DNA of 64,000 nt, taken from positions 1,802,556 to 1,866,555 of the forward strand of contig NZ_CM001558.1 of assembly GCF_000281895.1 (NCBI RefSeq), in the 5' to 3' direction. Shown one piece after another: positions 1 through 55,701 of the stretch. The first letter of the stretch is position 1, and each line of letters opens with the position of its first letter. Below the pieces are notes generated by a model. The model worked only from the letters and a program-made list of their open reading frames with translations, made no database searches and was not told where the DNA came from. This DNA is from Pseudomonas fluorescens Q2-87 (GTDB taxonomy: Bacteria; Pseudomonadota; Gammaproteobacteria; Pseudomonadales; Pseudomonadaceae). The position numbers and the translations under genes are program-made.

Positions 1-3000
1 GGCGTCTGGACGCCGGGCTGACCCGGCAGTTGTTGCAACAGGCACCAGCGGCGTATCGCACGCAGGTCAATGATCTGCTGCTCACCGCGTTGGCCCGCAC
101 TATCAGTCGCTGGAGCGGGCACTCGGGCACGCTGGTCGAGCTCGAAGGCCATGGTCGTGAAGACCTGTTCGAGGACATCGACCTGACCCGCACGGTCGGT
201 TGGTTCACGAGCCTGTTCGCGGTGAATCTGAGCGCTGCCGACGACCTCGGCGATTCGATCAAGGCGATCAAGGAGCAACTGCGCGGCGTTCCGCACAAAG
301 GCCTGGGCTATGGCGTGCTGCGTCATCTGGCGGCGCCTTCGGTGCAAGCCGAACTGGCGGACCTGCCGCCAGCGCGCATCACGTTCAATTACCTGGGCCA
401 GTTCGACCGTCAGTTCGACGAATCGGCGCTGTTCGTGCCATCCGGCGAAAGCAGCGGCGTGGCCCAGGATCCGACGGCGCCCTTGGCCAACTGGCTGACC
501 GTGGAGGGGCAGGTGTATGGCGGCGAACTGACGATGAGTTGGGGCTTCAGCTGTGAGATGTTCGACGGCGCGACCGTGCAGCGACTGGTCGATCGATATG
601 CCGTCGAGCTCACGGCGCTGATCGAGCATTGCGTCAACCTGGCCGCGCCGCAAGCCACGCCGTCGGATTTCCCGCTGGCCCGCCTTACCCAGGCGCAACT
701 CGATGGGTTGCCAGTATCGACCGGCCAACTCGACGACATCTATCCGCTGTCGCCGATGCAGCAGGGTTTGTTATTCCACACCCTCTACGAGCACGCCGCG
801 GGCGAATACGTCAACCAGCTGCGGGTGGACGTCCAAGGCTTGGACGTCGAGCGTTTCCGCGCGGCGTGGCAGGCGTGCATGGATGGGCAGGACATCCTGC
901 GCAGCGGTTTCGTCTGGCAAGGTGACTTGCAGCAGCCGTTGCAGATCGTCCACAAAGAACTGCCAGTGCCATTCACCGTGCTGGACTGGCGTGAACGTGC
1001 CGACCAGCCGCAGGCCCTTGCCGCGCTGGCCGAGGATGAGCGCGCGAAAGGCTTCGATCTGAGTCGGGCGCCCTTGTTGCGTTTGGTGCTGGTGCAGACC
1101 GGTGTCGGTCAATGGCATTTGATCTACACCCACCACCACATCCTGATGGATGGCTGGAGCAACGCACAGCTGCTCGGCGAAGTAATGCAACGCTACAGCG
1201 GCCGTGTGCCGGCCAGCATCACCGGCCGTTACCGTGACTACATCGCTTGGCTGCAACGCCAGGACGCTCAAATCAGCGAGGCTTTCTGGAGCGCTCAACT
1301 GGCCACCCTGCAAGAGCCGACCCGGTTGGCGCGGGTCATGTCCGCCAGCGAGACCCACAGCGGTCATGACGACCATTACCAGACCCTGGATGCGCCTCGC
1401 ACCCAGGCCCTGGAACAGTTCGCCCGCCAGCAAAAAGTCACCCTCAACACCCTGGTGCAAGCGGCGTGGCTGTTGCTGCTGCAACGCTATACCGGCCATG
1501 ACAGCGTGGCCTTCGGTGCCACCGTCGCCGGGCGGCCGGCGGACCTGCCGGGCATCGAGCAGCAAGTCGGCCTGTTCATCAACACCTTGCCGGTGATCGC
1601 CGCGCCGCGTCCGGACCAGTCGGTCGGTGCCTGGCTGCAAGCGGTGCAAGCGCAGAACCTGAGCCTGCGAGAGTTCGAACACACGCCATTGGCGGACGTC
1701 CAGCGCTGGTCCGGGCAGGGCGGCGAGGCGCTGTTCGACAACATCCTGGTGTTCGAGAACTACCCGATTGCCCAGGCGCTGCAACAGGGTGGAGAACAGG
1801 ACGTGGTGTTCGGCGAGGTCACCCATCTGGAGCAAACCCACTATCCGTTGAGCGTTGCCGTGACCCTCGGCCAGACACTGGCGTTGCACTACAGCTTCGA
1901 CCGGGCGCATTTCAGCCCGGCGGCCATCGCCGGCATCAGCGCTCACTTGATGCATCTGCTGGAAACCTTCGCTGAATCGGCGACCCGTAACCTCGGGCAA
2001 ATCGCCCTGGTCAGCAGCGCGGAACAATCCCGGCAACAGGCGGCCAATCACCCGCAGCCGTACCCGACCGATGTCGCGGTGCATCAGCGCATCGCCCAAC
2101 TGGCGGCGCAGCAACCGCAGAGCACGGCGGTGATCTTCGACGGGCAACGTTTCAGCTATGGCGACATCGACCGCCGGGCGAACCAACTGGCGCACGCCTT
2201 GATTGCCCGTGGTGTCGGCCCGGAAACTCGGGTCGGCGTGGCCCTGCCGCGCAGCGAAGGGGTGATTGTCGCGCTGCTGGCGGTGCTCAAGGCCGGCGCC
2301 GCTTACGTGCCGCTGGACACCCGCTACCCGCGCGAGCGCCTGGCGTACCTGATCGAGGATTCGGGATTGGCGCTGTTGCTCACCGATTCCCGGGTGTCGG
2401 CGCAGTTGCTCCTGGAAGGCGCCGCCCAGGTGTTGGAGTTCGACCGCCTCGACCTGAGCCAGCAACCATTGGAGGCGCCATCCGTCCAGGTCGATCCTCA
2501 GAACCTGGCGTACGTCATCTACACCTCCGGCTCCACCGGCAACCCCAAAGGCGTGAGCGTGGCCCATGGGCCTCTGGCGATGCATTGCCAGGCCATCGGC
2601 GAGCGCTACGAGATGCAGGGCAGCGACTGCGAATTCCATTTCATGTCCTTTGCCTTCGATGGTGCCCATGAGCGCTGGCTCACCAGCCTGACTCACGGCG
2701 CCTCGCTGTTGATTCGCGACGACAGCCTGTGGACGCCGGAGCAAACCTACAACGCGATGCGCGAGCACGGCGTGACGGTGGTGGCGTTCCCGCCGGTGTA
2801 CCTGCAACAACTGGCCGAGCACGCCGAGCGCGAAGGCAATCCGCCCAAGGTGCGCATTTATTGCTTCGGCGGCGATGCCGTGCCCAACGCCAGTTTCGAA
2901 CGGGTCAAGCGCGCCCTCGATCCGCAATTCATCATCAACGGCTACGGCCCGACCGAAACCGTGGTCACGCCGCTGATCTGGAAAGCCGGCCGCGAGGTGG

Positions 3001-6000
3001 CGTGTGGCGCCGCCTATGCGCCCATCGGCAGCCGCATCGGCGACCGCAGCGCCTACGTGCTGGATGCTGACCTGAACCTGCTGCCCCAAGGCATGGCCGG
3101 TGAGCTGTACCTGGGCGGCAGCGGGTTGGCCCGGGGCTACCTGAACCGTCCGGGCCTGACGGCCGAGCGATTTGTCGCCGACCCGTTCAGTACGGTCGGC
3201 GGCTTGCTGTATCGCACCGGCGACCTGGTGCGCCATCGCGCCGACGGCACCTTCGATTACTTGGATCGCATGGACAACCAAGTGAAGATTCGCGGTTTTC
3301 GCATCGAGCTGGGCGAAGTCGAAGCCAGCCTGCAAGCCTTGGACGGCGTGCGCGAAGCGGTCGTCGTGGCCCAGGAAGGCGCTGCCGGCAGCGGCAAGCA
3401 GCTGGTGGCCTATGTCGTGGCGGAGCAGGCGGAGGCCTTGCTTGAGGCATTCACCGAGCAGCTACGCGAGCAACTCAGGGCGACCCTGCCGGCGCACATG
3501 GTCCCGGCGTACCTGTTGCTGCTCGAACGCCTGCCACTGACGCCGAACGGCAAGCTCGACCGCAAGAACCTGCCCAAGCCCGACGTCAGCCAACTGCAGC
3601 AAGCCTACGTGGCACCCCGCAGCGCGCTGGAACAACAACTGGTATCGATCTGGCAGGACGTGCTCAAGCTTGGGCAAGTCGGCCTGCGGGACAACTTCTT
3701 CGAGTTGGGTGGCGATTCCATCGTCTCGATCCAGGTGGTCGGCCGCGCCCGTCAGGCCGGCATTCATTTCACGCCGAAAGACTTGTTCCAGCACCAGACC
3801 ATCGAGAGGCTGGCAACGGTGGCCCGCGTGGGCGCAACCAGCCAAGCCATCGATCAAGGCCCGGTGAGCGGTGAACTGATCCTGTTGCCGGTGCAGCAGG
3901 TGTTCTTCGACGAGGCCATCCCACAGCGTCAGCACTGGAACCAGTCGGTGATGCTCAAACCGACGCAACCGCTGGACGCCGGGGTGCTGGCGCAAGCCTT
4001 GGCCGCGCTGGTCGTGCATCACGATGGCCTGCGCTTGGGCTTCAGCCAGGAAGGCGAAGGCTGGCAGGCCCGCTACCGTTCGCCGGCCAGTCGTTGCGAC
4101 GACCTGCTCTGGGTGGCGGACATCGCGGACGCCGAGGCCCTGCACAGCATCGGCAACGAGGCGCAACGCAGCCTGGACCTGCAAACGGGGCCGCTGCTGC
4201 GAGGGGTGCTGGCGAACCTGGACGATGGCAGCCAACGGTTGCTGCTGGCGATCCATCACTTGGTGGTAGACGGCGTGTCGTGGCGGATTCTGTTCGAAGA
4301 CCTGCAAGGCGCCTACCGTCAGTTGCTCGCCGGGCAAGCGTTGCAATTGCCGGCGAAAACCACGTCGGCGCAGATCTGGGCCGAACGATTGCAAGGCTAT
4401 GCCCGCAGCGCCCCGTTGCAGGCAGAACTGGCGTATTGGCAGGCGCACCTTGAGGGCGTCGATGGGCAATTGCCGATGGACAACCCTTCAGGCGGTCGGC
4501 AAAACCGCCTCGCGCAAACCGTGCGCACCCGACTCGATGCGTCACTGACAGGCCAATTGCTGCAAGACGCGCCCAAGGCCTATCGCACCCAGGTCAACGA
4601 CTTGCTGCTTACCGCCCTGGCCCGGGTCATCGTGCGCTGGACCGGCAGCGACAGTGCCTTGATCCAGCTCGAAGGGCACGGCCGTGAAGCCTTGTTCGAT
4701 AATGTCGACCTGACTCGCACGGTCGGTTGGTTCACCAGCCTTTACCCGGCCAGGCTCACGCCGGTAACCGACCTGGGGAGCTCGCTGAAACAGATCAAGG
4801 AACAGCTGCGGTCGATTCCGAACAAGGGCCTGGGCTTTGGTGCCCTGGCGCACCTGGCCGATGACGCGTCGCGGGCGACCCTGGCCCGGCTACCCGTACC
4901 GCGCCTGACGTTCAACTACCTGGGCCAGTTCGACGCCAGTTTCAACGAGGCCGATGGCGCCTTGTTCGTACCGGCCGGCGAAGGTGCAGGGGACGAGCTG
5001 GACCCCGAAGCACCGCTGTCCAACGTCCTGGCGGTTAACGGTCAGGTGTTCGGCGGTGAGCTGAACCTGGGCTGGACCTTCAGCCGCGAGCAGTTCAACG
5101 AAACCACTGTCCAGGCCCTGGCCGACGATTACGCCCGTGAACTGCAAGCGTTGATCGAACATTGCTGCGACGGCGAGCAGGGCGGCGTAACGCCGTCGGA
5201 CTTCCCCCTGGCACGCCTGAACCAGCAGCAGGTGGATGGCTTGCCTGTGGCGGCGGCGCAAATCGCTGATGTGTATCCGCTGTCTCCGATGCAACAGGGC
5301 ATGCTGTTCCATGGCGTCTACGGCGATGCCAGTGGCGACTACATCAACCAACTGTGCCTGGACGTGGAAGGGCTGGACCCGGAACGTTTCCGCCAGGCCT
5401 GGCAGGCGGCGGTGGACGCCCATGACATCCTGCGGAGCCGGGTCGTCTGGCAGGGAGATCTTCCCGAGCCCGTGCAGTTGGTCAGCAAGCATCTGCAACT
5501 GCCTTACAGTCTCCATGTCTTGCGGGCCGACGAAACCTTGCAGGCGTTGGCCGATGCCGAGCGCCGGCAACTGGACCTGAGCGCGCCGGCCCTGTTGCGG
5601 TTGATGATCGTGCGCCTCGACGAGCAGCGCTATCACCTGATCTACACCCACCACCACATCCTGATGGATGGCTGGAGCAATTCGCAGTTGCTCGGCGAAG
5701 TGCTGCAACGCTACAGCGGCCAGGCTGTCGCCGGACCGGGCAGCCGTTATCGCGATTACATTGCCTGGCTGCAACGCCAGGACGTCGCCGCCAGCGAAGC
5801 ATTCTGGACGCCAGCGCTGCAACGCCTGGAGACGCCGACGCGGCTGGCCGATGTCATTGCCAACTCGAGGCCGGTGGGCAGCGGTCATGGCGATCACGTG
5901 CAGGTATTGGACGAGGCACTGACGCGCCGCCTGGAAGCCTTTGCCCGTGCTTCGAAAGTCACCGTCAACACGCTGGTGCAGGCGGCGTGGCTGCTGTTGT

Positions 6001-8503
6001 TGCAGCGTTACACCGGCAAGGACACCGTGGCGTTCGGCGCGACGGTGGCCGGTCGCCCGGCGGATTTGCCCGGCATCGAGCAGCAGATCGGTTTGTTCAT
6101 CAACACCTTGCCGGTGATCGCCAGCCCTCGGGCCGAGCAGTCCCTGGACAGCTGGCTGCAAGCGGTGCAAGGGCAGAACCTGGCGCTGCGGGAGTTCGAG
6201 CACACCGCGTTGCTGGACATCCAGCGCTGGGCCGGGCAGGGCGGTGAGGCGCTGTTCGACAGCCTGCTGGTGTTCGAGAACTACCCGATTGCCCAGGCCT
6301 TGGAGCAAGGCGCACCGGACGGCCTGTGCTTCGGTCCGGCGACAACAGAAGAACAGACCCACTATCCGTTGACGCTGCTGGTGGGCCTGGATCGGCAGTT
6401 GACGGTACACATGAGTTATCAAAGGGCGAGTTTCCAACCCGCCAGCGTCGCGAGGCTGGCGGCGCACCTGGCGCACTTGTTGGGCCAGATGACCGGGCAG
6501 GGCGAGCGCTGCCTGGGTGAGCTGTCGATGCTCGAGTTCGATGAGTATCAGCGCCTGACCCATGATTGGAACCCGGTGGACGCGCCGTTCGAGCAAACCC
6601 TGTGCATCCACCAGATCATCGCCCGCCAGGCCGAAGCCACGCCGGACGCCTTGGCCGTGACCTTCGCCCACACCCAGCTGAGCTACAGCGAACTCGACGG
6701 CCGCGCCAATCGCCTGGCCCACAAGCTCATCGAACTGGGCGTGGGCCCGGAGGTGCGCGTGGGCGTGGCGATGCCGCGCTCCGAGCATCTGCTGATCGCC
6801 TTGCTGGCGGTGCTCAAGGCCGGCGGTGCCTACGTGCCGCTGGATCCGGATTATCCGGCCGAACGTGTGGCGTACATGCTCGACGACAGCCGTGCCCGTG
6901 TGTTGCTGACCGAGCAAGCGGTGGCGGCGACGCTCACCGTTCCGGCTGAAACCACTGTGCTGATGCTGGATCGGATTCAGCTGGGCGAATACCCATTGAG
7001 CGCGCCGCCTACCTCGGTCGCCGCCGACAACCTCGCCTACGTGATCTACACCTCCGGCTCCACCGGCCAACCCAAGGGCGTGGCGATTGCCCATCGCAAC
7101 GTGCTGGCGCTGATCGATTGGTCGAAATCGGTCTACAGCCGCGACGACATCCAAGGCGTGCTCGCGTCCACCTCGGTGTGCTTCGACTTGTCGGTATGGG
7201 AGCTGTTCGTGACCCTGGCCAACGGCGGCTCGCTGATCATCGCCCGTAACGCGTTGGAATTGCCGCAACTGCCGGCTCGGGATCAGGTGCGGCTGATCAA
7301 CAGCGTGCCGTCGGCCATCGCCGCCTTGCAGCGCAACGGTGAAATCCCCGCCAGCGTGCGCATCATCAACCTGGCCGGTGAGCCGCTCAAACAAAGCCTT
7401 GTGGAAGCGCTGTACCAATGTGAATACCCAGGTGGGAGCGGGCTTGCTCGCGAAAGCGGTGGGTCAATCAACGATGGGCCAACTGACAGGACGCCTTCGC
7501 GAGCAAGCCCGCTCCCACAAGTTGGCGGGGTTGAGCATGTGTACGACCTTTACGGCCCCTCGGAAGACACCACCTATTCCACCTGGACCCGCCGCACCGC
7601 CGGCGGTACGGCGAACATCGGCCGGCCCCTCAAGCACACCGCTGCCTACCTGCTCGACGCTGACCTGCAACCGGTGCCTCAAGGTGTCTCGGCCGAGCTG
7701 TACCTGAGCGGCGCGGGCATCACCCGTGGCTACCTCGGTCGGGCCGCGATGACCGCCGAGAAGTACGTGCCCAACCCGTTCTCCAGCAGCGGCGAGCGCT
7801 TGTACCGCAGCGGCGACCTGAGCCGTTATCGCGCCGATGGTGTGCTCGAATATCAAGGCCGGATCGACCATCAGGTGAAGATTCGTGGTTTGCGTATCGA
7901 ACTGGGGGAAATCGAAGCGCGGCTGTTGCAACAACCCCAGGTGCGCGAAGCGGCGGTACTGGCCCAGGACGCCCCGGGTGGTCAGCAATTGGTGGCCTAC
8001 GTGGTTGCCCCGGCGCTGGACCTGGGCGTCGGCGAAGACCTGCGGGCCTTGCGCGATCAACTCAAGGCGGGCCTCCGGGCGCATTTGCCCGATTACATGG
8101 TCCCGGCCCACGTGCTGTTCCTCGACCAATTGCCCCTGACCCCCAACGGCAAGCTCGACCGCAAGGCCTTGCCCGCCCCGGAAATCGCCTTGCTACAGGC
8201 CAGTTATGTCGCACCGGCCACTGAACTCGAACAGCAGGTCGCGGCGATCTGGGCGCAAGTACTCACGGTGGAACGCGTAGGCCTGAACGATCACTTCTTC
8301 GAGCTGGGCGGCCACTCGCTGCTGGCAGTCAATGCCGTCTCGCGCATGGCCCTCGAACTGGGGTTGACCCTGACCCCCCAGCTGATTTTCCAGCAACCGG
8401 TCCTGAAGGATTTTGTCGCGCAACTCGACGCCGGAGACGGGCCGATCAACGAACAGAAACTGAACAAGCTGGAAGCCCTGCTTGATGAAATGGAGGAAGT
8501 CTG

Positions 8504-8504
<1 letters not shown>
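1..8504 (+). CDS. Pyoverdine NRPS, 5'-truncated by window edge: (E)-C-A[Lys]-T-E-C-A[Ala]-T
   Basis: The reading frame is open from base 3, so the gene starts upstream; about 2833 residues are visible. Domains: tail of an epimerase (to ~nt 700); D-to-L type C domain (~736-1990, HHHILMDGWS near 1131); A domain (A3 YVIYTSGSTGNPKG near 2512, A5 near 2938); T domain (FFELGGDSI near 3700); epimerase (~3870-5190, HHLVVDGVSW); second C (~5269-6540); second A (A3 near 7038, A10 near 8134); T (FFELGGHSLL near 8298). The code residues D-G-E-A-C-G-G-V-T fit pyoverdine Lys modules and D-L-W-N-N-A-L-T-Y fits Ala. The LGGDS carrier before the epimerase and LGGHS in the last module agree with D-Lys then L-Ala. 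The second A domain contains an in-frame REPIN at 7432-7518. The C-terminus (EQKLNKLEALLDEMEEV) looks like a docking helix. The stop overlaps the next start by one base. The protein is cytoplasmic. Family certain; substrates inferred. Confidence 0.96.
7432..7518. repeat. REPIN (REP doublet) inserted in frame inside the Ala adenylation domain
   Basis: Two perfect 23-bp inverted arms, at 7432-7454 and 7496-7518, enclose 41 bp. The arm begins GTGGGAGCGGGCTTGCTCG and matches the intergenic REPINs at 38251 and 55481. The element is 87 bp, exactly 29 codons, so the frame stays open. It lies just before the A5 motif (DLYGPSEDTT) of the A domain. Confidence 0.93.
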
Positions 8505-28459: not shown

Positions 28460-31400
28460 CTACTTACAGCCCAGAAAGACCTCGACCAGCGAATCAAGCA
28501 ATCCATCGTCGAAGATCATGCTGCGATGACGCAACGGCGAATACACCGAGCATTGCAGCTCCCCCGTCAAACTGTGTTCTTTAATCAACCCTTCGCAAAA
28601 AGCCAACTCCTCCGGGGTCTTTTCCGCCTGTGTCCACCAGCAGCTCGGACGTACCCGTACCGGCTTGAAAGTGAACCCATCGAAGGCCTCCAACAACCGG
28701 TCATGCACCGAAAACGCCTGGGCATTCATGACCTCATCCTTGACGCTCTGCACGATCGACAGCAAGTCGCCTCGCCCCGGCTCGATCTGGCTGGCGGCCC
28801 ATTCATGGAATGCCTGGACCGTGCTGTCGGGGTGCTGTTGCCGGTAAGCCGCCGTGCGCTCGGTGAGGGTAGGAAACAGCAGGTCGAAGTATTCGATGGC
28901 TTCGATCAGGTCCTGGGACGCCGGGTCGGCTGTTTCCAGGCTTGGCAAATGCCGATGGCGCGGCAAGGTCGCCGGGTAAAGGTGTTCCGGAATCGTGCTG
29001 TCCACCAGACCGAGGAAGCTCACGGTGTGGCCCTGGCTTTCCAGCGTGGTGGCGATATCCATGGCAATGGCGCCGCCCAAGGACCAACCCATCAGGCAAT
29101 ACGGGCCTTGGGGCTGGGCCTTGACGATTTCCTGGCTGTAATCGGCGATCATCTCGCCCCAGGCTTCGGGCCCTGCATGGGGTTCGCTGAAGCCGCGATG
29201 CATGACGCCAAACGTGCGCGCACGGTGTTGGAGTTTGCGTGCCAGTGGCTGGTAGCAGAACACGATGCCCCCGCTGGGGTGCAGGCAAAATAGCTGCGGT
29301 GCGGTGGCGGGGGCGTTGTTCAATTCGACCAGGCATTGAGTCTGCTCCCGGTGCTTGTGCGAAATGAACAGCGCCAGTTCGGCGATGCTCGGGTTGGCCA
29401 GCAGTTCTTGCAGCCGCACGGTGATATTCAGGCGCGCCTTGAGGTTGGCAATCAGCTCGATGGCGAGGATCGAATGGCCGCCCAATTCAAAGAAGCTGTC
29501 ATCGATGCTCACGCGCTCAACCCTGAGCGAATGCTGCCAGAGCTGCGCCAGGGCTTCTTCCAACGGGGTGCGCGGCGCGACGTATTGGCCATGCCAAAGG
29601 CCGGCATCAGGTTCTGGCAAGGCCTTGCGGTCGAGCTTGCCATTGGTATTGAGCGGGAAGCGATCGATGAACAGCAGGTGACTGGGCACCATATAGTCCG
29701 GCAACTGGGCTTTGAGGGCGTTCAACACGCTTTCGCGTAACTCGGCCGTGGACGGTTGCGTCGCGATCACATAGGCGATCAGTTGCAGGCCGCCCGAGCC
29801 TTCATGGGTCAGTACCGCGCAATCCTGGACTGCCGGCAGCGTTTGCAGACGTGCCTGGATTTCCCCCAGTTCAATGCGGAAACCACGGATCTTGACCTGA
29901 TGATCCAGGCGCCCGACGTATTCGATGCTGCCGTCGCTGCGGTAGCGGGCAAGGTCGCCGGTGCGATACAGGCGTCCACCCGGCAGCGGGTCGAACGGAT
30001 CGGGGATGAAGCGGCTGGCGGTCAAGTCGGCGCGCTGGTGATAGCCGCGCGCCAGGCCGGCTCGACCGACATACAGCTCACCGATGCAACCCTTGGGCAC
30101 CGGGTTCAGATGAGCGTCGAGCAAGTACCAGGACAGGTCGACGATAGGCTCGCCGATAGGGCTCGCCGCCTCGCGGTGCAGGTCGTTCATCGACAGCGGC
30201 CGCCAAGTGACATGCACGGTGGTTTCGGTGATGCCATACATGTTGATCAACCGTGGCGTCTGGTCCCCGAAACGTTCAAACCAGGGACGCAGGCTTTGCA
30301 CGTCAATCGCCTCGCCGCCAAAAATCACCTGGCGCAGTCGGTGGACAAGCGGCTGCCCAGGCTCGCACGCGACTTGCAACAACGACTTGAAGGCCGAGGG
30401 CGTCTGGTTGAGCACCGTGACGTTTTCCTGGCAAAGCAGGGCATAAAAATCCTGCGGCGAACGGCTCACGGCGTAGGGCACGATGACCAGTCGACCGCCA
30501 TGCAGCAGGGCGCCGAAAATCTCCCACACGGAAAAGTCGAAGGCATAGGAATGGAACAGGCACCACACATCCCGCTGGTTGAAACTGAACCAGTGCTTCG
30601 TGGCCTGGAACAAACGGTTGACGTTGTGGTGCGCGAGCAATGTGCCCTTGGGCTTGCCGGTCGAGCCTGAGGTATAGATCACGTACGCCAGGTTATCAGT
30701 GTCCATCGGCACATCCGGATTGTGCTCGGGACAGGTGCCATCGGCATCGACCGAATCCAGCAACAGACAATCCATGCCGGCGGGCAGCGCAAGCGACTCA
30801 AGCAGATGCGCCTGGGTCAGGACCTGCGTGACGCCACTGTCCTCAATCATGTATGCCAGGCGATCGGCCGGGTAGGCCGGGTCCAGCGGCACGTAGGCGC
30901 CGCCGGCCTTGAGAATGGCCAGCAGGCCGATGATCATCTGGGGCGTGCGCTCCACCGCGATGCCGACCAACACGTCGGGCCCAACGCCTCGCTCGATCAG
31001 CCGATGGGCCAATCGGTTGGCCTGTCGGTTGAGTTCGCCGTAGCTCAGGTGCTGCCCTTCAAACGTCAGGGCAATCGCGTCGCCCGAGGCAGCGGCATGG
31101 CTTTCGATCAAGTGGTGCAGGCAGCGCTCACGGGGCAGTTGGGTCGGCTGGCGGTTCCAGTCGCTGAGGGTTTGCTGACGCTCGGTGGCACCCAGCAATG
31201 GCAGTTCACCGAGTGCGCGCTCGGGCGTCTCGATCAGGCCTCGCAGCAGGTTTTGCCAATGCTCGGCCATGCGCTCGATGGTCGTTGCCTGGTAAAGATC
31301 GCGGCTGTACTCGAACGTTGCCACGATCTGTTGCTGTGAGTAGTCGACGTCCAGCGACAGGTCGAACTTGGCTTGGCTGTCTCCGGTATCGAGAAACTCC

Positions 31401-32605
31401 AGCACCCGTTGGCCTTGGGTCGGTGCTGGCGGTTTGGGCGAGCAGGTGCGCCAGTTGAACAAGACCTGGAACAGCGGATTGGAACCCTGGGCGCCAGGAC
31501 GTTGCAGTTGATCGAGGATCAGCTCCAGCGGGTAGTCGGCATGTTCCAGCGCGGCGAGGGACTGCGCGCGCAAATCCCGAAGAAAATCCAGCCCGCTGCG
31601 GGTCGAGTCGATTCGCGCGCGATACACCTGACTGCTGACAAAAAAACCCACCAGGTCCTGGCTTTCAGGGCTGTTGCGGTTGGCGTTGGGGACGCCGACG
31701 GTGAAATCGCTCTGGTTGCTGTACCGGCCCAGCAACAATTGCCAGGCACCCAGCGCCACCACGAAAGGCGTCAACCCCTGGCGTTGGCAGAACGCGTCCA
31801 AGGCCTGGGACACTGCGGGGGCAAGCGACAGATGCACGCGGCCGGCCATAGGTTGATGACTCGCGGCTCGGGGAAAATCTTGTGGAAGCTCCAGCGCAGG
31901 CAGGTCATGTCCCAGGTAGCGACGCCAGTATTCGCCACTGCGCTGGCAGGCCGTGCTTTGCAAATACGCGCCGCGCTGGTGGGCCGCGTAGTCGGCGTAT
32001 TGCATGGACAACGGCGGCAGCGCTGACGGATCGCCACACAAGGCCTGCCCATAGGCCTGGGTCATGTCCTGCATGAGGATCGTGTTGGACCAGGCATCGG
32101 AGACGATGTGGTGCATGTTGAGCAACAGCACATGTTCGTCATCGCCCAGCCCGAGCAGCGTTGCGCGCATCAGCGGCGCCTGGGTGAGATCGAAGGGTTG
32201 CCGGGCATGGCGCTCGATGCGCGCTGACAGCGCCACGGCCCGAGCCTGCGGATCGAGTGCACCGAGGTCCTCGCGGTGCAGAATGAGCTGGGCATTGCGC
32301 TCGACCACCTGGCTCGCGGCGCCGTCGATTTCAACGAACGCAGTGCGCAGGATGTCGTGGCGGTCGATGACGCGATTCAGTGCCTGCTCCAGAGCATCGG
32401 CATCGAGCGCGCCGGTCAGGCGCAGGGCCCGGGGCAAGTTGTAGGCCGAGCGGCTCGGATCTCTCTGTTGCTCCAGCCACAAGCGTTGCTGGGCGAAGGA
32501 CAAGGGGGCGCGGTCGAGCCGGCTACGGTGGGTGCTGGCGTGCAAGTCGCCAGCAACCTCATCGAGCAGCAGCGTCAGCAGATCATCATCTAGCAATTCG
32601 TTCAT
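28460..32605 (-). CDS. Pyoverdine terminal NRPS module C-A[Thr]-T-TE
   Basis: About 1381 residues from the ATG at 32605 (MNELLDDDLL, after GAGAACACC). An in-frame ATG at 32671 lies inside pvdE and is less likely. Domains: LCL-type C (LSFAQQRLWLEQQRD, HHIVSDAWS); A (YVIYTSGSTGKPKG; code D-F-W-N-I-G-M-V-H, the classic Thr code); T (FFELGGHSILAIEL near 29480); type I thioesterase (nucleophile motif GWSLGG near 29080). It adds the last residue, Thr, and releases the peptide by hydrolysis or cyclisation. It is the only TE in the window, so it probably takes the chain from the Asp module, although it is on the opposite strand and served by a different promoter. The gene starts 37 nt after the pvdE stop, so the two are likely cotranscribed. 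PAO1 PvdD is the comparable chain-ending synthetase. Confidence 0.94.
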   Translation of the reverse strand: MNELLDDDLLTLLLDEVAGDLHASTHRSRLDRAPLSFAQQRLWLEQQRDPSRSAYNLPRALRLTGALDADALEQALNRVIDRHDILRTAFVEIDGAASQVVERNAQLILHREDLGALDPQARAVALSARIERHARQPFDLTQAPLMRATLLGLGDDEHVLLLNMHHIVSDAWSNTILMQDMTQAYGQALCGDPSALPPLSMQYADYAAHQRGAYLQSTACQRSGEYWRRYLGHDLPALELPQDFPRAASHQPMAGRVHLSLAPAVSQALDAFCQRQGLTPFVVALGAWQLLLGRYSNQSDFTVGVPNANRNSPESQDLVGFFVSSQVYRARIDSTRSGLDFLRDLRAQSLAALEHADYPLELILDQLQRPGAQGSNPLFQVLFNWRTCSPKPPAPTQGQRVLEFLDTGDSQAKFDLSLDVDYSQQQIVATFEYSRDLYQATTIERMAEHWQNLLRGLIETPERALGELPLLGATERQQTLSDWNRQPTQLPRERCLHHLIESHAAASGDAIALTFEGQHLSYGELNRQANRLAHRLIERGVGPDVLVGIAVERTPQMIIGLLAILKAGGAYVPLDPAYPADRLAYMIEDSGVTQVLTQAHLLESLALPAGMDCLLLDSVDADGTCPEHNPDVPMDTDNLAYVIYTSGSTGKPKGTLLAHHNVNRLFQATKHWFSFNQRDVWCLFHSYAFDFSVWEIFGALLHGGRLVIVPYAVSRSPQDFYALLCQENVTVLNQTPSAFKSLLQVACEPGQPLVHRLRQVIFGGEAIDVQSLRPWFERFGDQTPRLINMYGITETTVHVTWRPLSMNDLHREAASPIGEPIVDLSWYLLDAHLNPVPKGCIGELYVGRAGLARGYHQRADLTASRFIPDPFDPLPGGRLYRTGDLARYRSDGSIEYVGRLDHQVKIRGFRIELGEIQARLQTLPAVQDCAVLTHEGSGGLQLIAYVIATQPSTAELRESVLNALKAQLPDYMVPSHLLFIDRFPLNTNGKLDRKALPEPDAGLWHGQYVAPRTPLEEALAQLWQHSLRVERVSIDDSFFELGGHSILAIELIANLKARLNITVRLQELLANPSIAELALFISHKHREQTQCLVELNNAPATAPQLFCLHPSGGIVFCYQPLARKLQHRARTFGVMHRGFSEPHAGPEAWGEMIADYSQEIVKAQPQGPYCLMGWSLGGAIAMDIATTLESQGHTVSFLGLVDSTIPEHLYPATLPRHRHLPSLETADPASQDLIEAIEYFDLLFPTLTERTAAYRQQHPDSTVQAFHEWAASQIEPGRGDLLSIVQSVKDEVMNAQAFSVHDRLLEAFDGFTFKPVRVRPSCWWTQAEKTPEELAFCEGLIKEHSLTGELQCSVYSPLRHRSMIFDDGLLDSLVEVFLGCK

Positions 32606-32642
32606 GGTGTTCTCGCGGTAAACAGCATTGCATCGGGCAGGT

Positions 32643-34301
32643 TCAGGCAAAGGCTGCCGGGGCCTTTTCACTGACGACCCGACCTGCCTGCATCCGGACC
32701 AATTGGTCGGCGATGTCGAAGTAACGGTCGTCGTGGGAAATGACGATGATGGTTTTGCCCAGTGCTTTCAGTTCCGGCAGCAGTTCGGTATAGAAAACGC
32801 GGCGAAACACCGGATCCTGATCAGCGGCCCACTCATCGAAGACCAGCACCGGGCGTTCTTCGAGCCAGGCGTTGAGCAGCGCCAGGCGCTTGCGTTGGCC
32901 GGTGGACAGATCGGTGGTGCTGAACGCGCCGTCCCGAACGCTGACCTTATGGGCGATTTCCAAACGCTCCAGGTAGCGGTTGGCATCTGCCGGCACCTGT
33001 TGATTGCCCTGGACCAGCTCATCGAACAGGTAGTAGTCGGCAAAAATCGTGGTGAACAACTGGCGGTAATCGTCCCGTCGGGCGACCGATACCGGCTCGC
33101 CATCCAGCAGGATTTCGCCGCCCTGGGGCGCATAGAGACCCAACAGCAATTTGATCAACGTGGTCTTGCCGCCGCCGTTCTCGCCGACGATGAAGACGAT
33201 GTCGCCTTGGGTGATGGACAGGTTGACCGGCCCAAGGGCGAAGGGTTGGCTGCCATCGACTGCCGGGAAGGCGTAGTGCACGTCCCGCAACTCCAACTGC
33301 TGGAGCGTCGGCTTGGCCGCACGCGTGTCGTTGAGCAGCAGGTGCGGCTCCGGTGAGGAAAACTGCTCGGCCAGCTCGGCAATGCGCTTGAAGGCGATGT
33401 TGGCCCGGCTGATCACCGGCAGGGTCATCACCAGGTATTCCAGCGGGCCCTTCACGTACAGCAGCACCAGCACGAAGCCGCTGAGCACCGCTTTATCCGT
33501 GCCCAGCCACAGCGATTGCAGGGCCAGGACCAGGCCGATGACCACGAAAAACAGCATCGAACCGAAGGTCTTGGCCACCACGAACGTATTGACCGAGCGG
33601 ATATTGGTGGCGCAGATGTGGTCGGCGGTGGCTTCGATGCGCTGGCTGAACATGCGTTGGCGGCGCGGACGATGAATGCGCAGCTCCTTGGCGCCGGCGG
33701 CAATCGCGCTGTAGTGCTTTTGCAGCGCGTCCTCGGCCTCGCGAGCCGCTTCGAACCCCCGGATGCCACGGGCTCGTGCGACGTATTGCACGACGGTGCC
33801 GATGACCAGCGCCACCAGCAGCAGCAAGAACATCGGCAGGGACAGGTAGGCCAGGTATCCCAGGCAACCGAGGGTCACGGTGAAGGCGATGGCCAGCGGT
33901 GCGAAAGAAAACGCAAAGTTGCTGACGGTGTTGACGTCGTGGGTCAACACCGGGATGAGCCGATGGCTGCGATAGCGTTCGATCTGCTCGATGGGTGCCA
34001 GCAAGACTTTCTGGCCCAGGGATTTGCGCAACCCGGCAATGATGTTCTGGCCGACATGGTTGGTGCCGATGTCCGAGAGAATCGAGGTCAACAGCGCCAC
34101 CGCACAGAGCCCGGCGAACGTCGCCAGCATCCGGGGCGTGGGCGTGGTGGCGGCGTTCAGGGCGTCGTTGATGGTTGCCAGCAGGGCGGTGATGCTCAGG
34201 CCGCCCAGCATGCCCAGGACGATGGAGCCCAGGACAATCAGCCGGAAGGGTTTGAGCAGGCTGAACAGTTCATTCATCGCCCCGCGTGTTGGTTGGCTCA
34301 T
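32643..34301 (-). CDS. pvdE: PvdE, ABC exporter of the pyoverdine precursor (cyclic-peptide exporter type)
   Basis: 552 residues from the ATG at 34301 (MSQPTRGAMNEL). An upstream in-frame ATG at 34376 would add 25 low-complexity residues; the chosen length is close to the ~549 of PAO1 PvdE. It is an ABC half-transporter: roughly 300 residues of membrane helices (for example LIVLGSIVLGMLGG, AFTVTLGCLGYLAYL), then an ATPase with Walker A GENGGGKTT (near residue 370), signature LSTGQRKRLAL and Walker B VLVFDEWAADQD. As a dimer in the inner membrane it moves the acylated precursor to the periplasm, where PvdP/M/N/O act. It is transcribed with the Thr-TE synthetase, and a PvdS box lies at 34404-34427. 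Confidence 0.92.
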   Translation of the reverse strand: MSQPTRGAMNELFSLLKPFRLIVLGSIVLGMLGGLSITALLATINDALNAATTPTPRMLATFAGLCAVALLTSILSDIGTNHVGQNIIAGLRKSLGQKVLLAPIEQIERYRSHRLIPVLTHDVNTVSNFAFSFAPLAIAFTVTLGCLGYLAYLSLPMFLLLLVALVIGTVVQYVARARGIRGFEAAREAEDALQKHYSAIAAGAKELRIHRPRRQRMFSQRIEATADHICATNIRSVNTFVVAKTFGSMLFFVVIGLVLALQSLWLGTDKAVLSGFVLVLLYVKGPLEYLVMTLPVISRANIAFKRIAELAEQFSSPEPHLLLNDTRAAKPTLQQLELRDVHYAFPAVDGSQPFALGPVNLSITQGDIVFIVGENGGGKTTLIKLLLGLYAPQGGEILLDGEPVSVARRDDYRQLFTTIFADYYLFDELVQGNQQVPADANRYLERLEIAHKVSVRDGAFSTTDLSTGQRKRLALLNAWLEERPVLVFDEWAADQDPVFRRVFYTELLPELKALGKTIIVISHDDRYFDIADQLVRMQAGRVVSEKAPAAFA

Positions 34302-38208: not shown

Positions 38209-38406
38209 TTCGCGAGCAGGCTCGCTCACACAGTGGGAATGCGGTCACCTGTGGGAGCGGGCTTGCTCGCGAAAACGGTGGGTCAGTTTGCATCGATGTT
38301 GGATGTGCCGACGCCTTCGCGAGCAAGCCCGCTCCCACACTCGCTCTGTGATGTTCATAAATTCGGTGCCCAACACAAAACCTGTGGGAGCGAGCCTGCT
38401 CGCGAT
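38209..38406. repeat. REP cluster, family B: one REPIN flanked by two single REPs, between the pvdM and pvdP promoters
   Basis: A single REP (TTCGCGAGCAGGCTCGCTC) is at 38209. A complete REPIN follows at 38251-38338, and a further single REP (GTGGGAGCGAGCCTGCTCG) starts at 38384. The cluster fills the space between two divergent PvdS boxes. It accounts for most of the 379-bp gene-free stretch 38118-38496. Confidence 0.88.
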
Positions 38407-55480: not shown

Positions 55481-55567
55481 GTGGGAGCGGGCTTGCTCGC
55501 GAACGCGCAGTGTCAGTGAAACAAGTGCTTGTTGATACATTGCCTTCGCGAGCAAGCCCGCTCCCAC
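55481..55567. repeat. REPIN, family B
   Basis: 87 bp with perfect arms GTGGGAGCGGGCTTGCTCGC at 55481 and complement ending at 55567. It has the same length and arms as the element inside the NRPS at 7432. Confidence 0.92.
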
Positions 55568-55614
55568 ACTTTGGTCGTGGTGAACACAAATCTTGCAACT
55601 ACCGAAAGTCTCCT

Positions 55615-55701
55615 GTGTGAGCGAGCTTGCTCGCGAAGGCGGCCTGACAGTCGATGCTTCATTGACTGATACAGCGAAATCGCGAGCAAGCTCGCTCCCA
55701 C
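55615..55701. repeat. REPIN, family B, second of a tandem pair
   Basis: GTGTGAGCGAGCTTGCTCGCGA at 55615 (one base off the arm consensus) faces its complement ending at 55701. With the preceding element it fills the 306-bp gap 55474-55779. Confidence 0.88.

Follow-up and report, generated by a model that had tools for sequence, protein, structure and literature searches.

A REPIN translated within a pyoverdine NRPS gene

REPINs are short palindromic elements that are thought to be moved by RAYT transposases. The window analyzed here, a stretch of 64,000 nucleotides from Pseudomonas fluorescens Q2-87, opens inside an NRPS gene, and such an element interrupts the final A domain encoded in that gene (Table 1). 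The Pfam AMP-binding match falls into two stretches around the insert, which abuts the motif DLYGPSE, taken by us to be A5. The gene has motifs matching A3, A5, A7, A8 and A10 as well as the carrier site (motif names as we assume them to apply), and the pocket residues of the insert-bearing A domain, judged by eye, resemble what we presume to be the alanine code. The window also encodes PvdO (510.7 bits, cut-off 500) and PvdN (778.2 bits, cut-off 650), both above the curated cut-offs, as well as a TIGR01194 cyclic peptide exporter and a TonB siderophore receptor. The NRPS gene thus lies next to pyoverdine maturation genes, as a pyoverdine NRPS gene should. A separate 1403-aa frame on the minus strand (28460-32671) has NRPS model matches and adjoins the exporter-like gene and the siderophore receptor.

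Table 1. Positions of the REPIN, its host gene and related elements in the window
Feature	Position	Strand	Remarks
NRPS ORF, open at window start	3..8504	+	4205-aa frame in the whole genome
A domain interrupted by the REPIN	6621..8153	+	Pfam AMP-binding and AMP-binding_C
Full additional tract	7419..7529	+	37 codons vs 3 in empty orthologues, net +34 aa; limits taken from peptide comparison
REPIN, 87 bp	7432..7518	+	translated in frame; sequence GSGLARESGGSINDGPTDRTPSRASPLP
Left REP arm, 23 nt perfect	7432..7454	+	27 nt when extended to 7458 (96%)
Right REP arm, 23 nt perfect	7496..7518	-	27 nt from 7492 at 96%
A5 motif DLYGPSE	7545..7565	+	immediately downstream of the insert
REPIN of the same family, 88 bp	38251..38338	+	outside the NRPS; exact 23-mer pair 38251/38316
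REPIN of the same family, 87 bp	55481..55567	+	outside the NRPS; exact 23-mer pair 55481/55545

An earlier note on this DNA had described a complete REPIN of 87 bp with perfect 23-bp arms, in frame beside A5 of a pyoverdine NRPS and of the same family as the elements at 38251 and 55481. All of this was borne out. The arms are identical inverted 23-mers, which can be extended to 27 nt at 96% complementarity around a spacer of 33 nt, giving the inverted REP repeat with a hairpin that is typical of REPINs; the same exact 23-mer pairs recur in both other elements, and the ORF continues through the 87 bp with zero stops. The usual, though not absolute, extragenic position of REPINs does not apply to this copy, which shares its in-gene, in-frame location with the intragenic REPs described in the accessible part of PMC3733652. 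Copies of the 23-mer arm with up to 3 mismatches occur 14 times in the window and 0 times in 100 shuffles. Additional REP arms near both reference REPINs (38209-38406 and 55481-55701) indicate that these belong to small clusters and are not lone elements.

As expected for a REPIN, the element has many relatives in its own genome. At least 102 matches to the 87-mer (both strands counted, and based on 40 scored of 557 first-look candidates) were found in this single-contig genome of 6,368,168 bases. The genome further contains five Y1 transposase matches (PF01797), and for one of these five candidate RAYT genes (L236) the REP of the window element adjoins it on both sides within 1.5 kb.

Empty and filled versions of the site in related domains

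Relatives of the interrupted domain were collected from two sets of 298 and 398 Pseudomonas genomes, which overlap and for which two candidates of each genome were scored, together with 79 loci from named genomes, some of which are shared with these sets. Of the 144 loci L031-L174, 87 were matched by a segment pattern spanning the site, hereafter site 1; the 57 unmatched loci all came from the 79 named-genome loci and are mostly A domains of other kinds. In-frame segments were obtained from 30 of 30 loci of the 298-genome set and from 25 of 25 of the 398-genome set, which means that no out-of-frame insert was dropped among them. Together, 59 distinct site-1 peptides were recovered, of which 45 are empty and exactly 34 aa long and 14 are longer, while none is shorter and none contains a stop. 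The distance between the anchors is 27 nt in empty domains and 129 nt in the window gene, a net difference of 102 nt or 34 aa. This is the clean gap that the earlier note had expected from such an alignment, within its range of 29-35 residues.

The 14 filled peptides derive from 12 genomes: the own genome (G000), G267, G376, G289 (two domains), G035, G297, G266, G153 (two domains), G280, G209, G125 and Pseudomonas sp. Q11. Each contains an in-frame REPIN or its remnant, the loop being mostly deleted in G125. Their net inserts range from 81 to 363 nt (27 to 121 residues), every one a multiple of 3, and strong hairpins are predicted for all 14. A one-strain accident is rejected by this distribution, and the copy, which the earlier note had called unusual, is not unique to this strain, with 13 other distinct peptides filled at site 1 and a second site filled in 16 domains (see below). 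The chance that an assembly error created the insert is negligible, as the genome is a single contig and site 1 is filled in 11 other genomes. In the plasmid collection no orthologue was found, the best cover being 11%.

Two of the filled loci have a more complex structure. At about 610-900 of L036 (G153), two REPINs are separated by a duplicated host segment, NLAGEPLKQSLVDTLY, and the frame is kept. At about 2640-3030 of L061 (Pseudomonas sp. Q11), the arms are extended outwards on both sides by repeats of ~15 bp; this insert is the one of 363 nt net and is likewise in frame.

With 34 additional residues immediately before a catalytic motif, it could be suspected that the A domain has lost its activity through the insert and that the NRPS is decaying. 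We searched the 398 genomes with a protein query comprising the insert and its flanks, scoring at most 15 candidates per genome. Matches at E <= 1e-10 were obtained in 12 genomes, and in 10 of these the insert lies in stop-free frames of 621-4567 aa; the matches in G363 and G053 comprise the REPIN only, in a 70-aa frame. Since G280 was missed by this search, site 1 is filled in at least 11 of the 398 genomes. For pairs of insert-bearing domains, median dN/dS of the upstream flank was 0.105 (89 of 91 pairs) and that of the downstream flank 0.206 (90 of 91), compared to 0.175 (968 of 990 pairs) and 0.220 (641 of 990), respectively, for empty domains, in each case over pairs with dS within 0.2-0.9. 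As judged from these ratios, the flanks of insert-bearing domains evolve under purifying selection. The open frames and the low dN/dS, along with motifs A3, A5, A7, A8 and A10 and the carrier site in the window gene, make a dead gene highly improbable. The suggestion in the earlier note that the strain might be unable to make its own pyoverdine likewise finds no support, in view of the 4205-aa open frame, the catalytic motifs and the low dN/dS in the flanks of insert-bearing domains.

Presence changes of the insert at site 1

A tree was built from the flanks of 62 sequences with the insert excluded; 4 distant rows were dropped and short-flank rows were not used. The 14 insert-bearing rows and the empty domains of G112 and G160 form one 16-member clade (support 100/100). 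Monophyly of the 14 inserts on their own was rejected (AU test, p 1.5e-9), and the tree requires at least three presence changes, so that up to three gains are possible. A single gain followed by two losses fits the flank tree, and so do histories with as many as three gains. The junctions in G112 and G160 are cleanly empty, with no foreign tract in either. Trees from the separate halves of the flanks gave three presence changes upstream and four downstream, the 16-row clade being broken in the downstream-half tree.

A glycine ahead of the following V/I is present in all 14 inserts and in 1 of the 45 empty domains, and the type-1 elements at site 1 (see below) are 87 nt long in nine of nine copies. 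A single gain is favored because of these two shared features. Judging from the sequences, the most likely history would be a single ancestral insertion that was later lost twice, inherited with the module and also through module duplication.

Further in-frame inserts ahead of motif A3

In Pseudomonas kilonensis DSM 13647 (L077), a nested in-frame REPIN occupies the stretch preceding A3 in a different NRPS A domain, and a simple REPIN is found in the same position in P. zanjanensis SWRI12 (L085). A search for this site 2 in the 398 genomes yielded 15 near-full-length matches in six genomes, all in open frames of 1538-4264 aa: three each in G209, G424 and G039 and two each in G125, G297 and G266. 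One G039 insert is identical to that of P. kilonensis DSM 13647. Including L085, this gives 16 distinct site-2 inserts, whose segments span 51-66 aa, whereas the nine nearest loops without an insert have 23 aa; as these inserts came from a protein query, they represent in-frame cases only.

Both sites are filled in G209, G266, G125 and G297, and each of these genomes has three or four copies within one NRPS locus. PvdN was found above its cut-off in all 13 insert genomes searched. It lies on the same contig and at most 45 kb from the inserts in G000, G039, G209, G266, G125, G424, G376, G289 and G267, and 64 kb from one insert on the same contig in G153, while in G297, G035 and G280 PvdN and the inserts are on separate contigs.

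Exchange of REP type and orientation in place

The elements at site 1 are of two REP types. Type 2, defined by GGGAGCAAAGCTTGCTCGCGA or a remnant of it, is present in G289, G035, G280, G125 and Q11. The insert type mostly tracks the REP type of the genome itself: exact type-2 REPs number 239 in G289, 89 in G035, 349 in G280 and 185 in G125, whereas the type-1 carriers G000, G267, G376, G297, G153 and G209 have 1, 1, 18, 11, 0 and 16, respectively. G266 goes against this trend, with 151 type-2 REPs and yet a type-1 insert. Among the genomes of empty domains, G112 likewise departs from it with 65 such REPs; G156 and G160 have 0. The loop is in forward orientation in seven inserts and inverted in six, that of G125 being unassignable. 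On the flank tree, REP type and orientation have each changed at least four times, and the frame was kept throughout.

By eye, type-2 inserts appear to retain type-1 arm ends on their outside, and they have 15-bp, that is five-codon, repeats at both arms. To see whether such 15-bp arm extensions occur outside NRPS genes, we screened 60 type-2 REP occurrences at the fetched loci, some of them counted twice (both strands or overlapping loci); a single occurrence was flagged, and it belongs to the NRPS insert of L077. A further REP copy that looked nested was noted by eye in L215 (G266).

Element length offers an explanation for how inversion leaves the frame intact. Site-2 elements are 88 nt long when of type 1 (11 of 11) and 90 nt when of type 2 (5 of 5). 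Among the best 30 REPIN copies in the own genome, 14 are 87 nt, 13 are 88 nt and three are shorter. In the 14 own-genome REPINs of 87 nt (window copy included), the frame used by the host is open in 13 and the matching reverse frame in 12. With palindromic arms that give an identical peptide in either direction, and with type-1 elements of 87 nt at site 1, a flip in place leaves the frame intact.

These observations bear on whether site 1 is an insertion hot spot, in which REPINs entered the same codon repeatedly and independently, only in-frame survivors being seen and the clade reflecting a susceptible sequence. Repeated entry would fit the three presence changes on the tree, the two empty domains without a foreign tract, the tracking of genomic REP type and the occurrence of both orientations. 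It does not readily account for the single length class of type-1 elements at each site (87 nt at the first, 88 nt at the second), for the downstream glycine codon common to all 14 inserts, or for the type-1 arm ends apparently retained outside type-2 inserts. On balance we consider such a hot spot unlikely.

The arms have diverged far less than their surroundings. In all seven forward type-1 elements (the inverted G153b copies being left out), the third-position difference was 0.034 in the arms, 0.276 in the 100 upstream codons and 0.293 in the loop, so that arm third positions are ~8-fold less divergent than those of neighboring codons. Slow arms combined with low flank dN/dS suggest that the gene is under purifying selection while the arms are either constrained or refreshed. 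Over type-1 arms of both sites, 99.6% of cells are paired, compared to 98.0% on average and 99.3% at most after shuffling, and two-sided changes occur at three positions; as few positions vary, little weight can be given to this pairing.

Arm conservation far above that of flanking silent sites, the strong hairpins predicted in all 14 inserts and the three or four copies per NRPS locus in four genomes would also be in line with a selected function of the hairpin or loop, for instance in mRNA structure, translation pausing, module recombination or domain tuning. We regard this as very unlikely, given that 45 of 59 related domains do without an insert, that G112 and G160 represent clean losses or absences, that G125 lacks the loop and that inserts vary widely in sequence and length.

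A probably tolerated insertion with REPIN-like arms

We consider it probable from these comparisons that an old in-frame REPIN insertion is tolerated as a loop, with the genomic pool keeping its arms REPIN-like and selection keeping its frame. A REPIN would have entered an ancestral pyoverdine A domain in frame just ahead of A5, where the additional residues would form a surface loop on an A domain that still works, and out-of-frame versions would have been purged by selection. The presence of different in-frame versions at the same spot in relatives suggests that the host has long been tolerant of the REPIN. The arms could have been refreshed in place from genomic REPINs by gene conversion, or alternatively through new REPINs landing inside the old one or via hairpin-templated copying. 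The likeness of the arms may reflect such a refreshing mechanism or plain constraint, as both fit the data.

It is quite unlikely, in our opinion, that REPINs have turned into a permanent protein segment of pyoverdine A domains, one open to conversion and inversion, in which the REPIN/RAYT system keeps the palindrome in the DNA, frame selection keeps it in the protein and near-identical copies in several modules seed recombination or provide a tunable loop. If this were true, a mobile-element system would contribute to diversifying a siderophore assembly line. The inserts in any case provide a natural series for one codon position, at which the REPIN may be absent, single, inverted, type-switched, nested, doubled or deleted, and by which mobile-element evolution can be compared with host frame and phylogeny. 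Moreover, the frame is kept at two A-domain positions despite 27 to 121 (site 1) and ~28 to 43 (site 2) added residues, and both positions may aid NRPS engineering.

Relation to known palindromic elements

According to the parts of PMC3116915 available to us, Pseudomonas REPINs are primarily extragenic, 14 of the 1,067 top 16-mers overlapping genes in SBW25. The element described here resembles those REPINs in being an inverted REP doublet with a hairpin, many copies and a matching REP adjoining a Y1 gene, and differs from them in being translated in frame within one domain family. In the portion of PMC3390384 at hand, REPs are placed in non-coding regions. The accessible text of PMC3733652 reports GTAG and CGTC REPs or REP dimers in frame within genes of several bacteria, often adding 20-30 residues for which its authors suggested flexible loops, and assigns Pseudomonas REPs to GTAG-1. 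Like those intragenic REPs, our REPIN is read in frame inside a gene. The cases in that text concern DNA repair, replication and RNA genes, whereas the host here is an NRPS, and they differ from the present two fixed sites in tens of orthologous domains with type and orientation exchanged in place; the words 'NRPS' and 'pyoverdine' have 0 occurrences in its main text. The RPE of Rickettsia, as presented in the part of PMC10969869 available to us, are also palindromic repeats read in frame in protein genes that stay open, but they would belong to other sequence families and lie in many unrelated genes; the likeness is in mode alone.

In the literature searched, a limited library of articles without their supplements, we came across no description of REPs within NRPS genes. 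The main text of PMC11366639, so far as accessible, deals with pyoverdine NRPS evolution, including that of P. kilonensis DSM 13647, without the words insertion, REPIN, palindromic or repeat. REPs that are read in frame within genes are already known; what is new here is that a single domain family has long retained them at two fixed sites, with exchange of the element in place. A REPIN census confined to extragenic copies would overlook this long-lived in-gene class.

Other in-gene REPINs of the own genome were sought among the 30 best DNA copies and 150 peptide-frame matches (150 of 706 candidates scored). Frames of 1028, 947 and 861 aa were inspected individually, the rest being at most 721 aa long and some containing stops. 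The 947- and 861-aa frames were rejected as REPIN-bearing genes, as they run opposite to recognizable genes on the other strand, and the 1028-aa frame was judged antisense from its composition alone. Elsewhere in this genome, at G000:C1:5407509-5408828, ten REPINs of the window family are arranged in tandem with a spacing of ~137 bp.
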